A DNA stretch of 40,200 nt from a virus. Positions within the stretch are counted from its first letter, which is position 1. Every line of letters starts with the position of its first letter. The translations under genes were made by a program, and so were the position numbers. The stretch spans positions 1-40,200 of IMG/VR virus record IMGVR_UViG_3300032144_000419; one strand, written 5' to 3'. Shown one piece after another: positions 25,063 through 32,450 of this stretch. The notes under the pieces were generated by a model. That model was not told where the DNA came from. It was given only the letters and a program-made list of their open reading frames with translations, and made no database searches.

Positions 25063-25683
25063 TCACTGCATCACGCGGCAGTTGCCGAACTCGCAGCGCA
25101 GCATCATCACATCGCCGTTGCTGCAGGCGACCGAGTAGGTCTCGAAGCCCGGGCCCTTCGCAATCATGCTCGATCGCGGATCAGAATTGCACTTGCCTTG
25201 CCGGGCCATCGTTTCGACCTGGTAGGACCACTGGCCGCGCGCGGCCGGTGCCGACGCGGCTGGCGCCGCGGTTGCGGGCGTCGTCGCAGCTGCCGGCGCG
25301 GAGGCCGGCGCAGCTGCTGCCCCCGCGGCCGCGTTCTCCGCCGCCAGCGCCATCGTGGTCGTGCAGCCACGCTGCGTGCGCACCTGCTGCAGCTGCGCTA
25401 GGCGCGCATTCGCACTCTCGACCGCGCTGGACTTCTCCATCACGTTGCCAACGCCGAAGTCACCGAGGAAGCTGAGCACCGAGCGCGTGTCGAACTCGCT
25501 CTCCTTCTCGACACGTGCCAGGAAGCCATGAACCTTGGCCGTCTCGAGCTCGAGCTCGCGACAGTTCATCGTGTTGCGCTCGACGCCAGTGAGCTCGCCC
25601 TGGCGACCGTAGTTCTTGGTCGCGCAACCGGTGGCTGTCAGCACGGCAAGGCCGAGCCAGGCGATAGAGAGGAATCGGTTCAT
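25063..25683 (-). CDS. Lipoprotein of the lysogeny region
   Basis: A 206-residue lipoprotein. The signal peptide MNRFLSIAWLGLAVLTATGC ends with a lipobox at Cys20. A helical part follows (ELELETAKVHGFLARVEKESEFDTRSVLSFLGDFGVGNVMEK...NARLAQLQQVRTQ). Next is an Ala/Pro/Thr-rich low-complexity linker (about 118-153). The C-terminal domain is small, with four Cys (KCNSD, VACSNG, LRCEFGNCRVMQ). GGGAGC precedes the ATG. It lies between the membrane protein and the lysis cassette and has its own leader with a dyad. It is not a known Mu gene. A role in altering the lysogen surface (exclusion or host benefit) is inferred. Confidence 0.8.
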   Translation of the reverse strand: MNRFLSIAWLGLAVLTATGCATKNYGRQGELTGVERNTMNCRELELETAKVHGFLARVEKESEFDTRSVLSFLGDFGVGNVMEKSSAVESANARLAQLQQVRTQRGCTTTMALAAENAAAGAAAAPASAPAAATTPATAAPAASAPAARGQWSYQVETMARQGKCNSDPRSSMIAKGPGFETYSVACSNGDVMMLRCEFGNCRVMQ

Positions 25684-25786: not shown

Positions 25787-26197
25787 TCAACGGCGCTCGA
25801 ACAGTACCTGCTCGATCTCGGACAGGTGCACCTTGTAGCCGCGGATGGCGCGCCCATAGATCCGGCGATCGCGCTCGACGCGATGCATCGGCCAGGCCAC
25901 GGTGACCGCCTGCAGCAGCATGCCGGCCATCAGGAACTCGCCGCGCACGTTCGGCCGGTGCGCGACCACGATCAGCAGCAGTGCGGCCGCGCCCAAGAGC
26001 AGCGCGACCATGAGCAGCAACCACGGCGAGGTCAACATCTCCCAGCGCGCGGTGTTGAGCTTGGCGCGGAAGCGCGCCTCTGCATCGAGCAAGTCTTCGG
26101 TCGACCAGTCCCAGTAATCCAGACCGGGTGACGTGATGTTGAAGATGTCCCGGCCAGCGACCTGGCGCACTGGGCCGTGATAGACCTGATTGGTCAA
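25787..26197 (-). CDS. Two-helix membrane protein with N-terminal QVAGRDIFN motif
   Basis: A 136-residue protein translated from a TTG in a TTGA overlap with the repressor stop. AAGGGGAG at good spacing supports this start. Residues 5-22 carry VYHGPVRQVAGRDIFNIT, very similar to the C-terminus of the repressor. An amphipathic, acidic part follows. Two membrane helices (about 58-79 and 86-104) are separated by a very short loop. The C-terminus is basic (HRVERDRRIYGRAIRGYKVHL). Both ends should be cytoplasmic. It is cotranscribed with the repressor in the lysogen. The proposal that it binds the repressor at the membrane is inferred; I know of no characterised homologue. Confidence 0.8.
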   Translation of the reverse strand: MTNQVYHGPVRQVAGRDIFNITSPGLDYWDWSTEDLLDAEARFRAKLNTARWEMLTSPWLLLMVALLLGAAALLLIVVAHRPNVRGEFLMAGMLLQAVTVAWPMHRVERDRRIYGRAIRGYKVHLSEIEQVLFERR

Positions 26198-26763
26198 CGT
26201 TTGCTCCCCTTCCCGCGGCCGTGATTAACGACATCGCGGCCCGCGGCCTGACCGACCGATGCGTGGAAGGTCTGGGTCACCGTGGACTTTCCTGTGACCT
26301 TGCCTTCCGTTGGTGCGGCTGCTGTGGGGGACGTCTTCGCCAGCCGCTTGGCCAACGAACTCACCGTTTCTCGGTCGGACTTGCCGCAGTTGCGCCAGTC
26401 TTCAAGCAGCTCAGCCTCTTGATCGTCCCTGGGCCCGCGATCGAGCGCTTCGCGGAGTTGGCCCAGCAAATCGGCGCTTTTCGAGAACACCTGACCGGCC
26501 TCGCGTTGTATGCGCTGCAGTTGCCCCTCCCCGGTCTGGATGTACCAAAGGTCTATTTCTAGATCCGGCCTGGCCTCGGCGAGCTTCTTGACGGCCTCGA
26601 ACGGGAACGACGACCGAGCCTTCCTCTTGTTGAAGGCGGCGGCACTCATGCCCAAGAGCGCGGCGACCTCCTGATCGGTCTGCACCTTGAGCGTCTGCTT
26701 CAGGCGAAGCAGCGCGTGCTCGTACTCGAAATATTGCAGTTCCAAGAGCAACCCCTTGCGCAT
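26194..26763 (-). CDS. Phage repressor with CI-type HTH and C-terminal glycine-rich motif
   Basis: A 189-residue protein. Residues 12-80 form a CI-type HTH (LRLKQTLKVQTDQEVAALLGMSAAAFNKRKARSSF... DLWYIQTGEG). A helical linker follows, then a Ser/Thr/Pro-rich stretch. The end is TFHASVGQAAGRDVVNHG (165-182) and a basic tail. No S24 LexA-like protease domain is present, so RecA-type cleavage is unlikely. It is divergent from the Ner-like gene across an operator region. The ATG at 26763 overlaps a dyad and has no ribosome site. An in-frame TTG at 26745 has AAGGGG at 6 bases and may be the true start, giving 183 residues. Confidence 0.85.
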   Translation of the reverse strand: MRKGLLLELQYFEYEHALLRLKQTLKVQTDQEVAALLGMSAAAFNKRKARSSFPFEAVKKLAEARPDLEIDLWYIQTGEGQLQRIQREAGQVFSKSADLLGQLREALDRGPRDDQEAELLEDWRNCGKSDRETVSSLAKRLAKTSPTAAAPTEGKVTGKSTVTQTFHASVGQAAGRDVVNHGRGKGSKR

Positions 26764-26853: not shown

Positions 26854-27087
26854 ATGAGCGTTCGCACTGCGAAGACGATCCGCACACCGGCTCAGGTGCG
26901 AGACGAGTTCACTCGCAAGGGTGTCTCGATCAGCAGCTGGGCGGTGGCGCATGGCTTCAGCACTGCGCTGGTGTTCGACCTGCTTGCCGGCCGCAAGAAG
27001 GGCCTGCGCGGGGACGCGCATCGCGCGGCCGTCGCGCTCGGCCTCAAGCGCGGCGAGATCGTCACCGACTTGAGCCAAGTGCTCTGA
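26854..27087 (+). CDS. Cro/Ner-like DNA-binding protein (BcepMu gp16 family)
   Basis: A 77-residue protein that starts MSVRTAKTIRTPAQVRDEFTRKG. It contains the helix-turn-helix SISSWAVAHGFSTALVFDLLAGRKKGLRGDAHRAAVALGLKRG, the signature of BcepMu gp16-type phage proteins. It is the first early gene, divergent from the repressor, so it probably plays the Ner role (turning down repressor and early transcription). AGAAGGG at 8 bases supports this ATG over a TTG 18 bases upstream. Confidence 0.85.
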   Translation: MSVRTAKTIRTPAQVRDEFTRKGVSISSWAVAHGFSTALVFDLLAGRKKGLRGDAHRAAVALGLKRGEIVTDLSQVL

Positions 27088-28418: not shown

Positions 28419-29426
28419 ATGGCCCGCACGCCCAATCCGAAGTCCACGTCACCCGTCGAGGTGGACTTCGACGAGTCCAAGTTCAAGAAGCTCGACTCCG
28501 ACGTCCGCGCGCTCGTCGCGCTCGACAACCAGGCCGAGGCGCACGTGCGCGCCGTGGCCATCCGCGTGGGCTACCAGCTGCCGGCCGACAGCGTCGACCC
28601 CGACCTCATCCAGCGCGACATTGCCGCGAGCATGCGGCGCAGCGTCGAGGCCGTCCTCGAGGTGGGCCGCGGCCTGACCGCGCTGAAGGCCGCCTGCCAG
28701 CACGGCCAGTTCCTGGCGCGCCTGGAGCTGCTCAACCTCGAGCCGCGCGTCGCCCAGCGGTTCATGCAGTCGGCGCTCAAGTTCGCAAATGCGTCGACGT
28801 CGCCGCTTTTGAAGGCCGCCGGCACCCAGAGCAAGCTGTTCGAGCTGCTGGTGCTGGACGACGAAGAGGTCGAGGAGCTGATGCTGACCGGCCAGACCGG
28901 CGAACTCAGCCTGGACGACGTGGCGACTATGTCGGTGAAGGAGCTGCGCGCCGAGCTGCGCCAGACCCGCGCCGATCGCGACTTCGAGGTCGACAAGCGC
29001 TCCAAGGCCGAGGCCAAGCGCGACGCCGCCGAGAAGAAGTTGCGCGGCAAGGTGCCCGAGGTGATGCCGCTGGACGAGCGCCTGGCGCCGTTCCAGAAGG
29101 ACATCACCGAGCGGCACTCGCTCATGGAGAAGTGCGTGATGGCCGACGTCGAGGCCATCAAGGCGCTCGAGACCTGGTGGCTCGAGGATTCGGGCGAAGA
29201 CGGGCCGATGCCGCCCGCGGTGCTCGCGGTTCTGGTGCACATGGACAACTCGGTCGCGCAGCTCGCCAGCTGGGTCGGGATGCTGCAGCACACGCTCAGC
29301 GAGCGCTTCAGCGGCGACCTGCAGGCGGCGCGTCAGTACCTGATGCAGGCACCGCCACCCGATGACGAAGTGGAGGCCGAAGAGGCATCCGCGCCGGCCG
29401 CCGGCAAGCGCGGCAAGCGGGGCTGA
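28419..29426 (+). CDS. DUF3102-like early protein
   Basis: A 335-residue, mainly helical protein. Residues about 60-110 (SMRRSVEAVLEVGRGLTALKAACQHGQFLARLELLNLEPRVAQRFMQSALKFAN) match the DUF3102 pattern of ParB-like HTH phage proteins. A coiled coil follows (TMSVKELRAELRQTRADRDFEVDKRSKAEAKRDAAEKKL), then an acidic, Ala-rich tail with a basic end (GKRGKRG). The ATG is chosen for GGAG upstream; the longer in-frame reading runs through the winged-helix gene. It lies directly before transposase A, so a role in transposition or DNA handling is possible. Confidence 0.7.
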   Translation: MARTPNPKSTSPVEVDFDESKFKKLDSDVRALVALDNQAEAHVRAVAIRVGYQLPADSVDPDLIQRDIAASMRRSVEAVLEVGRGLTALKAACQHGQFLARLELLNLEPRVAQRFMQSALKFANASTSPLLKAAGTQSKLFELLVLDDEEVEELMLTGQTGELSLDDVATMSVKELRAELRQTRADRDFEVDKRSKAEAKRDAAEKKLRGKVPEVMPLDERLAPFQKDITERHSLMEKCVMADVEAIKALETWWLEDSGEDGPMPPAVLAVLVHMDNSVAQLASWVGMLQHTLSERFSGDLQAARQYLMQAPPPDDEVEAEEASAPAAGKRGKRG

Positions 29427-29427
29427 C

Positions 29428-31227
29428 GTGCTCGACGCCGACATGAGCCTCACACCCGCCATTCGCGAGCACCTCAAGGCCCTCGCGGCGCGGCTCGACG
29501 CTGCACCGCGCGGTCAAGCCACCGCACTGGTGCGCGAGGCCGCCGAGTTCCTGGGCTGGTCGCCGCAGACGGTCTACCGTCAGCTGCGCGAGTCGGCCGG
29601 CTGGAGTTCGGGTCGGCGCGTGCGCAAGGACAAGGGCAGCACGTCGGTCAACGCCGATGCGCTCGTCTCGCTCGCCGCAGCGCAGCGCGAGAGCGTTCGC
29701 GACAACGGCAAGCAGACGCTTTTCACGACCACCGGCCGCGGTGTGTTCGAGGCCAATGGCGTGCGCTTCGGCGTCTCGAACCAACAGCTCAACCGGCTCA
29801 TGCGCGACCGCAAGCTCGGCGTGGCCGCCCAGCGCAATGCGAACCCGGTGCAGGACTTGCGCGCGCCGCATCCGAACCACACGCACGAGGTCGATCCGTC
29901 GCTGTGCCTCGTGTACTACCTGCGCAATCGCCAATACCTGATCCGCGACAGTGAGTTCTACAAGAACAAGCTCGACGCGATCGCGCGGGTCAAGTTCAAG
30001 TGCTATCGCTACGTCGGCTATGACCGCGCCAGCGGTGCGCTGGTGCCCTGGTACGTCGAGGCCTCGGGTGAGAGCCAACAAAACCTGTTCGACTTCCTGA
30101 TGTTCCTGTGGGGCGAGCAGTCTGGCCGTCCGTTCCACGGCGTGCCGAAGAACCTGCTCGTCGACAAGGGCAGCGCGCGCGGCAGCGCGCTCGACAACCT
30201 GCTCAAACACCTCGAGGTCAATCCGCTCGACCACGCGCCGGGCAAGCCGCGCGTGAAGGGCGGCGTCGAGGTCGGCAACAACATCGTCGAGACGCAGTTC
30301 GAGAGCCGCCTGCGTTTCGAGCCGGTCGACAACGTCGAGCAGCTCAACGCCGCTGCGTTCGCCTGGGCCAATGCCTACAACGCGAACCTGATCCCTGGCC
30401 AGGACTCCCGCTTGCGCCGCGAAGGCCTGGCGCAGCCTGTGGCGCGCTACGACCTGTGGCAGCTGATCAATGCCGAGCAGCTGCGTCGCTTGCCGCCGGT
30501 CGATGTTTGCCGTGCGCTGATGGCGGCGCGCGAGGAGGAGCGCACCGTGCGCCCGAACCTCACGATCACCTATCGCCACCCGCAAGCGGACGCGTCGGCC
30601 ACCTACAGCGTGCGCGGCCTGGACGGCGTCAACGTCGGCGACAAGGTGTCCGTGCGCTCGCTGGTCTACGGCGAGTGCGCCATCCAGATCGAGGTCGCTC
30701 GCTATGACGGCGAGCCACTGGTCTATCGCGTCGAGCCCGAGACCGGTTTCGATCGCTTCGGTCAGCGCCTGTCCGCCGCCGAGATCGGCAGCGAGTTCAA
30801 GGCCATGCCGAAGACCGAGATCGAGCACGCGGCCGATGCGATGGACGACAAGGCGTTTCCCGGCCTCAACGACGACGAGCTCAAGGCCGCGCGCGAACGC
30901 AAGGTCACGCCGTTCGGCGGCGAACTCAAGGCGCACAGCTACCTCAAGGACGTGGCGCTGCCGACCTACCTGCCGCGCAGCGGCAGCGAGATCGAGACGC
31001 CGGCGCACGCGCGCTTCGAGATGCCGCGCCTGGACGCCACCGCCGCGATGCTGCGCATCGTCGACGCGATCGGCCGCAACCTGAGCAGCGCCGAGCACGC
31101 ATTCCTGGCCGCCCGCTATGCCGATGGCGTGCCAGAGGACCAGCTCGAAGCGCTGATCGCCCAGTTCAAGGCCGGCCTCGATGCGCCGGTGCCGCAGCAG
31201 GCCGTCGGTGGCCTGCGCGCTGTCTAG
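29428..31227 (+). CDS. A: DDE transposase A (Mu A family)
   Basis: A 599-residue protein from the GTG, or 594 from an ATG at 29443. The N-terminus is an HTH region (REAAEFLGWSPQTVYRQLRE). The catalytic core shows Asp199 (YVGYDRASG), Asp246 (NLLVDKGSA) and Glu281 (KGGVEVGNN), giving a D-D35E spacing like many integrases. A Mu-transposase C-terminal beta-barrel follows (ATYSVRGLDGVNVGDKVSVRSL). The C-terminal tail would contact B. It carries out strand transfer for integration and replicative transposition. The early operon position with B next is as in Mu. Confidence 0.95.
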   Translation: MLDADMSLTPAIREHLKALAARLDAAPRGQATALVREAAEFLGWSPQTVYRQLRESAGWSSGRRVRKDKGSTSVNADALVSLAAAQRESVRDNGKQTLFTTTGRGVFEANGVRFGVSNQQLNRLMRDRKLGVAAQRNANPVQDLRAPHPNHTHEVDPSLCLVYYLRNRQYLIRDSEFYKNKLDAIARVKFKCYRYVGYDRASGALVPWYVEASGESQQNLFDFLMFLWGEQSGRPFHGVPKNLLVDKGSARGSALDNLLKHLEVNPLDHAPGKPRVKGGVEVGNNIVETQFESRLRFEPVDNVEQLNAAAFAWANAYNANLIPGQDSRLRREGLAQPVARYDLWQLINAEQLRRLPPVDVCRALMAAREEERTVRPNLTITYRHPQADASATYSVRGLDGVNVGDKVSVRSLVYGECAIQIEVARYDGEPLVYRVEPETGFDRFGQRLSAAEIGSEFKAMPKTEIEHAADAMDDKAFPGLNDDELKAARERKVTPFGGELKAHSYLKDVALPTYLPRSGSEIETPAHARFEMPRLDATAAMLRIVDAIGRNLSSAEHAFLAARYADGVPEDQLEALIAQFKAGLDAPVPQQAVGGLRAV

Positions 31228-31238
31228 GAGCGCCCCCG

Positions 31239-32450
31239 ATGGCCCTCAAGCTCAAGCACCTCCTCACTCAGCGCGGCGTCAGCGCCAACGGCCTGGCACG
31301 CGCCACCGCCCTGAACAGCGGCTCGATGAGTCGCTTCCTGAACTTCGGCGTCTGGCCCAAGACACCGTCGGAAGGCGAGCTGCGCCTGCGCATCGCCGAG
31401 CACCTCGGCATGCCCGCCGAGCAGCTCGCCAGCCACTTCGAACACGACGTCGACCTGCAGCCGCAGGACGGCGACACCCACCCGGCGGCGGATGCCGTCA
31501 CTCAACCGGAGATCGACCTCATGCTGTTGCGCAAGCAGACCCTGACCCGCGAGGCCCGCCAGCACTTTCGCATCGCCCGCGACCCCTTCGACGAAAGCGC
31601 CATCCAGTCCGACGCCGACGTCTTCGTCAACGACGACATCCGCCACGTTCGCGCGGCAATGCGCCAGACGGCACGCCACGGCGGCATGCTCGCCGTCATC
31701 AGCGAGAGCGGCGGCGGCAAGAGCACGCTGCGCCACGACCTGGTCGACTGGATCAACTCGAACAACGAGCCGATCACGGTCATCCAGCCCTTCGTGCTGG
31801 GCATGGAGGGCAAGGGCGAGCGCGGCAAGACGCTGACCAGCATCGACATCACCGGCGCGGTGATCCGCAAGGTGGCACCTGGCACCACACTGCGCGCCAG
31901 CCAGCAGGACCGCTATGACCAGATGCAGGCGGTGCTGAGCGCGAGCGCCCAGGTCGGCCGCAAGCACGTCCTGGTGATCGAAGAGGCCCACGACCTGGCC
32001 GTGCCCACGATCAAGCACCTGAAGCGGTTCTACGAGCTGCAGGACGGCTTCCGCCGCCTTATCTCGGTGATCCTGATCGGCCAGACCGAGCTCGAGCGCA
32101 AGCTGAGCGAGCAGAACCCCGAGGTTCGCGAGGTCGTGCAGCGCATGGAAGTCGTGACGCTGCCGCCGCTGGACAACCACCTCGAGAACTACCTGCGGCA
32201 CAAGCTGGCGCGCGCCGAGGTGAACATCGACGCCGTGCTCGACGCGAGCGCCGTCGACGAGATCCGCACGCAGCTGCGCACGACGATCACCGAACGGAGC
32301 AGCGCTGGTCAGCGCGCGACGCGCATGGCGTCGCTGTGCTATCCGCTGGCGGTCCACAACCTCCTGACCTCGGCCATGAACGCTGCGGTGCGCATCGGCG
32401 CGCCGCGCGTCACGGCCGACCTGGTCGCCGCCGCAGTGAGGGCGTCGTGA
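31239..32450 (+). CDS. B: Transposition target/activator ATPase B (MuB-like AAA+)
   Basis: A 403-residue protein. The N-terminal HTH (HLLTQRGVSANGLARATALNSGSMSRFLN) binds DNA. The AAA+ core has Walker A SESGGGKST (155-163), Walker B HVLVIEEA (243-250) and sensor ILIGQTELE. The C-terminal part has RATRMASLCYPLAVHNLLTSAMN. This is the ExeA-like/MuB type. It captures target DNA, activates A and gives target immunity. It starts 11 bases after the A stop. Confidence 0.95.
   Translation: MALKLKHLLTQRGVSANGLARATALNSGSMSRFLNFGVWPKTPSEGELRLRIAEHLGMPAEQLASHFEHDVDLQPQDGDTHPAADAVTQPEIDLMLLRKQTLTREARQHFRIARDPFDESAIQSDADVFVNDDIRHVRAAMRQTARHGGMLAVISESGGGKSTLRHDLVDWINSNNEPITVIQPFVLGMEGKGERGKTLTSIDITGAVIRKVAPGTTLRASQQDRYDQMQAVLSASAQVGRKHVLVIEEAHDLAVPTIKHLKRFYELQDGFRRLISVILIGQTELERKLSEQNPEVREVVQRMEVVTLPPLDNHLENYLRHKLARAEVNIDAVLDASAVDEIRTQLRTTITERSSAGQRATRMASLCYPLAVHNLLTSAMNAAVRIGAPRVTADLVAAAVRAS

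Follow-up and report, generated by a model that had tools for sequence, protein, structure and literature searches.

Why should the repressor of a temperate phage and the product of the next gene carry the same short motif at their facing ends? The question is raised by a locus in a 40.2 kb IMG/VR virus record (the window, by which we mean the whole stretch of DNA analysed). The window belongs to a B3/Mu-like transposable phage. It encodes a transposase A (29362..31227, plus strand), whose nearest known phage relative is Komp_PAO1_1 (62.6% identity, with 42% to Bise), and an AAA ATPase transposition protein that is MuB-like by position (31239..32450, plus strand; PF13401, 2.8e-15). The repressor gene is divergent from that of a Ner-like early regulator (26854..27087, plus strand), which by eye resembles the Ner-like antirepressor of Bise. 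An earlier note had singled out the repressor and its neighbour from the letters of this DNA, and the reading frames, the overlap and both peptides that it described are indeed present.

The repressor (26194..26763, minus strand) is a protein of 189 residues with a CI-type HTH at about residues 18-83 (PF07022, E 1.8e-8), a helical middle and a tail, residues 145-189, that is predicted to be disordered; AlphaFold pLDDT is >90 over the HTH and <50 over the tail. Domain searches returned no S24 autoprotease match, as the earlier note had maintained, so that the protein does not group with the S24 LexA/CI-type repressors. The next gene (25787..26197, minus strand) overlaps it by four bases, TTGA, at 26194-26197, and encodes a 136-residue membrane protein, here called the partner. 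Its frame opens at a TTG with no other start upstream, and the protein begins LTNQVYHGPVRQVAGRDIFN and continues into a helical hairpin. Of the two membrane helices claimed for it, the first (residues 60-78) is strong by hydropathy and the second is weaker; the AlphaFold model nevertheless gives a hairpin (helices 58-80 and 82-135), homologues also show two helices, and we place the predicted transmembrane hairpin at about residues 58-105 (25883..26026, minus strand). The partner matches no family in Pfam, PHROG, NCBIfam or PADLOC, its model found no structural match at E 0.001, and it has no match to the P22 Ant C-terminal or ORF6C domains that would place it among the antirepressors. PADLOC anti-phage defence models matched neither protein, and PDB profile searches gave nothing significant, the top entry being bactofilin A, a polymerising beta-helix, at E 0.11.

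The shared motif lies at residues 164-180 of the repressor (QTFHASVGQAAGRDVVN; 26224..26274, minus strand) and residues 4-20 of the partner (QVYHGPVRQVAGRDIFN; 26138..26188, minus strand). The two segments, which we call tail and head, align without gaps over 17 residues with a BLOSUM62 score of 51, z 9.9 against shuffled tails, and this alignment bears out the homotypic motif that had been proposed for the facing ends. When the tail was compared with all ORFs of at least 50 aa in the six frames of the window, the best match besides the repressor itself was the adjacent gene (52), followed by an overlapping frame (46). Both segments are predicted to be disordered in monomer models, in which the HTH and the hairpin are well predicted.

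Is this likeness a peculiarity of one phage? Direct homologue searches with the window repressor and partner found almost nothing; the pair is too divergent for them, and relatives were therefore collected by their transposase, and the repressor and following gene were read in each. About 40 relatives were examined, including IMG/VR prophages, Pseudomonas phage B3 and P2-like E. coli prophages. For most repressors with a glycine-rich tail, the N-terminus of the next gene product bears a motif of that kind too; the adjacency is thus conserved, with a wider spread than the earlier note had envisaged. That note had named tails with no motif-bearing partner as the outcome that would count against it; most loci show the opposite. 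The AGRD motif of the window is real, and it is only one of several types, the others being a RHIM-like VQ[IV]G type, an SGHRF..DYYE/NRxAGRDY type and an FHGQ..EGDV type. Examples of tail and head are QHFHGSVTGDQFAAGDITNH and QHFNGNAKGQFAAGNIHNH in L067, EIAGSGHRFSVTGDYYE and QIGGSGHRFALRDYYE in L076, GGVQVGVNSGTIT and GSIQVGCNSGSIT in L088, GDFHGQLVEGNVNN and GDFNGQLANGNINN in L110, and NVHAPGGNAAGRDLTI and KVNAPKGNAAGRDIDI in L106. The pair of phage B3 consists of the ORF18 tail VTGDGNRTAGRDFHE and the ORF20 head VTGSNNIVAGRDFIE; it resembles that of the window in locus position, in its matched tail and head and in its two membrane helices, and differs in having a motif of NRxAGRDF type and a partner annotated only as hypothetical. 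Phage Ps59 also bears a pair, with a two-helix partner. Searches of viral contigs gave no match to the B3 partner.

The matched pair of the P2-like E. coli prophages, LNISGGNNRIAGRDYNE and VNSNGSNNRVAGRDFHE, has similar DNA in 520 of 5,426 complete E. coli genomes, and two more diverged P2-like variants are also matched, as are further viral contigs. Burkholderiales chromosomes yielded no partner and one tail-less repressor (L180). Flk is a membrane-anchored flagella regulator, and the body of one P2-like partner (L177:1937-2587, E. coli 55989) matches it at 7.8e-16 (NF007987), below the curated cut-off; Flk and these phage partners may share ancestry. In Escherichia phage 520873 (L161:3900-4650) the partner gene is frame-shifted, whereas E. 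coli genomes have annotated intact copies.

While the window partner is a membrane protein, as had been claimed, this does not hold as a general rule. Soluble-looking partners include most of those of VQ[IV]G type, that of L106 and one of the two in L111, where three matched genes stand in a row (repressor tail, soluble ORF6C-like protein, two-helix membrane protein), all with G-VAGRDI-N. L111:3848-4984 and L080:5848-7091 each show two successive motif-bearing partners behind a single repressor, of which one has membrane helices and the other is soluble or zinc-binding. In several partners a second, VQ[IV]G-like glycine-rich element lies behind the first motif (NIQIGRYDGSHTVNI, RIQIGVINGGQNI; for example at L177:1997-2050 and in an L111 partner head).

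The strongest evidence is that motif type co-varies across the phages, which is invisible from the window alone. In a blind test on 43 non-redundant loci, for which the longest ORF after the repressor was taken automatically as partner, re-pairing gave a mean score of 23.5 (SD 1.24), and the mean for cognate tail and head was 39.7, a value that 0 of 100,000 permutations reached. In three cases (the window, L095 and L097) the automatic choice picked a wrong frame; the blind test keeps these errors, and they are put right only for a curated set of 40 pairs, with means of 47.6 cognate and 26.0 re-paired. Cognate pairs also score above re-paired ones inside single types: AGRD (n=15; 44.8 vs 32.3, p 1e-5), VQ[IV]G (n=11; p 1.6e-4) and NRxAGRDY/HRF (p 0.025), with the caution that all permutation p-values here, including that of the blind test, are inexact because the loci are related by descent. 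Presence of a tail predicts presence of a head (30/4/5/14, Fisher 8.7e-6, each segment being scored only against other loci), although this table and the curated set depend on our choice of loci, and the curated set and class labels were made after viewing the sequences; the blind test is independent of them. Six pairs match weakly (L062, L080, L082, L094, L126 and L131). Common descent of a single motif does not explain how large the effect is, nor that it recurs in different motif types.

A second line of evidence is the behaviour of tail and partner as a unit. The repressor cores of L075 and L076 are identical at 75 of 105 residues and those of L079 and L142 share 82 of 90, and within each of these two couples both the tails and the partners differ. 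Conversely, the body of the window partner has homologues in the partner bodies of L076 and L115 (HMM E 1.3e-6), whereas its motif is of AGRD type and theirs is SGHRF, each fitting its own repressor. By sequence, then, tail and partner have been exchanged together, as one cassette, between repressors whose cores are alike.

Where the repressor lacks a tail (Bise, Fc02, L063, L066, L087, L119, L148 and L180), unrelated genes come next, encoding a capsid-family protein, a lipoprotein, TPR-like and TIR-like proteins and others. The lipoprotein gene that directly follows the Fc02 repressor is a homologue (53% identity) of the gene that follows the partner in the window (25063..25683, minus strand), so that tail and partner look like an insertion there. 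The Fc02 repressor RepC gives immunity, and the lysogen transcript of the repressor extends into the next gene (PMC9936078); since RepC has no tail, the tail is dispensable for repression. For the tailed repressors of L105 and Komp_PAO1_1, the stretch that was read contained no partner. In relatives the slot behind the repressor is a cargo site of B3-like prophages, and by eye it also holds TIR-like (L087:5632-6471), HsdR-like (L085:6316-7497, also L086) and DUF4236 (L060:5837-7003) genes.

Matched motifs on neighbouring genes have precedents in bacteria. BASS motifs occur in NLR-Bell gene pairs and were found through pairwise alignment of neighbours (PMC8086366, PMC7889193). The present pairs resemble them in having a short matched motif at the facing termini of the products of adjacent or overlapping genes, in falling into several motif families and in that one partner often has a membrane helix; in these respects the architecture seems close to that of paired amyloid-signalling motifs, as the earlier note had suggested. 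In the present candidate pairs, the receptor side is a phage repressor, with the motif at its C-terminus and at the N-terminus of the partner. The window pair contains an HTH repressor and no NLR receptor, Bell domain or other known effector, and it lacks the RHIM/PP (BASS3) core [IV]Q[IVL]G, and we therefore claim no BASS membership for it. That core is confined to the VQ[IV]G relatives, whose G-x-V-Q-[IV]-G resembles RHIM, fungal PP and BASS3 motifs. A Pfam scan of the AGRD peptides gave no match, and the AGRD motif matches no known amyloid family. The L088 tail weakly matches the fungal Ses_B family as a peptide (PF17046, 0.0012), 19 of 20 VQ[IV]G peptides have no Ses_B match, and the PDB yielded no match.

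Two familiar classes of phage regulator offer further comparisons. Like S24-type CI and Mu c repressors, the window repressor is an HTH protein opposite an early regulator in a position to control lysogeny, but it has no autoprotease domain and its tail is matched to a second protein, the partner. Weak similarity to phage antirepressors (P22 Ant C-terminus, phrog_245, 2.5e-4; ORF6C, 0.0037) was seen for some partner bodies that are soluble or C-anchored, a similarity that the window partner body does not share. We know of no antirepressor that carries a motif in common with its repressor.

How, then, are the matched motifs to be understood? Matched motifs occur in adjacent genes, and motif type switches in both genes together. 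The best reading of these alignments is that repressor tail and partner head are two copies of one short homotypic interaction motif, co-evolving in the manner of lock and key, and we put the probability that the pair represents a real homotypic coupling at about 0.8. The repressor and partner would be made from one lysogenic transcript and would co-assemble through these segments, which are disordered on their own, into what is probably a stack of beta-arch/amyloid-like or beta-solenoid form; that the assembly is of amyloid type is a guess we would back at slightly less than even odds. The window partner is a predicted two-helix inner-membrane protein whose motif probably lies on the cytoplasmic side, and because of this anchoring assembly would draw the repressor to the membrane. 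The most likely use, though a less certain one, is as a conditional brake or sink by which the partner controls the repressor (an antirepressor or tether), so that lysogeny or immunity would depend on a cue sensed by the body of the partner. We favour this direction because the genes are probably co-transcribed and some partner bodies are weakly antirepressor-like, and hold it tentatively, at a little under one chance in two; the same grade applies to coupling and regulation of the repressor taken jointly.

Almost equally likely is the reverse direction, in which the repressor is the sensor and the partner the effector, both directions being inferred; considering that the partner bodies are diverse and several have no membrane helix, an effector fits as well as a regulator. 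In one specific form, which we regard as possible but doubtful, repressor crowded on the operators of a phage that is entering or replicating would nucleate the motif and switch on a membrane partner, and this partner would exclude the phage or bring the cell to arrest, much as proposed for NLR-Bell pairs. The known use of matched motifs in adjacent genes is indeed in receptor-effector pairs (PMC7889193), many of the diverse partner bodies have membrane helices, and elsewhere the slot carries the TIR-like (L087) and HsdR-like (L085/L086) genes. Yet PADLOC found nothing beyond coiled-coil noise in the window and other partners, several partners are soluble, and some resemble antirepressor domains weakly.

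Three other explanations fare worse. The tail might serve self-association of the repressor, replacing a missing C-terminal oligomerisation domain, while the partner oligomerises by the same motif and any mixing is incidental. The repressors do lack a C-terminal S24/oligomerisation domain and tails without partners exist (L105, L160), but strict matching of neighbours even inside one motif type would be unexpected, as would exchange of tail and partner as a unit, and we judge this improbable. Still less probable is a toxin-antitoxin-like operon in which the HTH protein restrains a membrane toxin by binding through its tail: the gene order (HTH gene first, small and partly membrane partner second), the short overlap and a weak similarity of the HTH to antitoxins suit it, whereas the motifs are matched rather than complementary, the HTH gene occupies the place of the phage repressor, facing a Ner-like gene and beside transposition genes, and several partners are large or soluble. 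Finally, short low-complexity-like motifs match randomly in large collections, and when the motif was searched as a DNA pattern in genome contigs, the matches were mostly unrelated proteins, only L016, L017/L026 and L020 looking motif-like. Chance, or recent duplication of a glycine-rich stretch, is nevertheless refuted for the family as a whole by the permutation and codon tests, and we give it almost no credence. In the codon test, the same codon was used at 144 of 308 identical aligned residues in 28 pairs, compared with 136 expected from local codon use. Such chance-level sharing implies that the likeness is old and kept at the protein level, with no recent duplication. The codon test also ruled out a DNA or RNA element as the cause of the similarity of tail and head.

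What would a homotypic coupling of repressor and partner mean? If the pairs bind, repressor activity, and hence lysogeny and immunity, would be controlled by a protein-protein motif system with built-in specificity. Such coupling of a repressor to a matched partner in phage dormancy is apparently previously undescribed: in agreement with the earlier note, a search of the open literature gave us no description of a motif-paired repressor system in temperate phages. A review has asked if bacteria have signalling amyloids other than those of NLR pathways (PMC7889193), and the pairs provide a large, statistically supported set of candidates, tractable in phage B3/PAO1 and in the P2-like E. coli prophages. 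The more sweeping idea that many different temperate phages couple their lysogeny to the cell membrane, or to other partner modules, by prion-like templating between the repressor and a co-transcribed protein, as an amyloid-type signalling switch that works independently of NLRs and with motif types diversified against cross-talk between co-resident prophages, seems to us rather unlikely. Motif-like segments (NNQVAGRDIVNN and similar) also occur outside the transposable phages, in Pelobacter, Desulfobulbaceae and Opitutaceae, and at a C-terminus in Nonomuraea (L017, L026, L020, L016).
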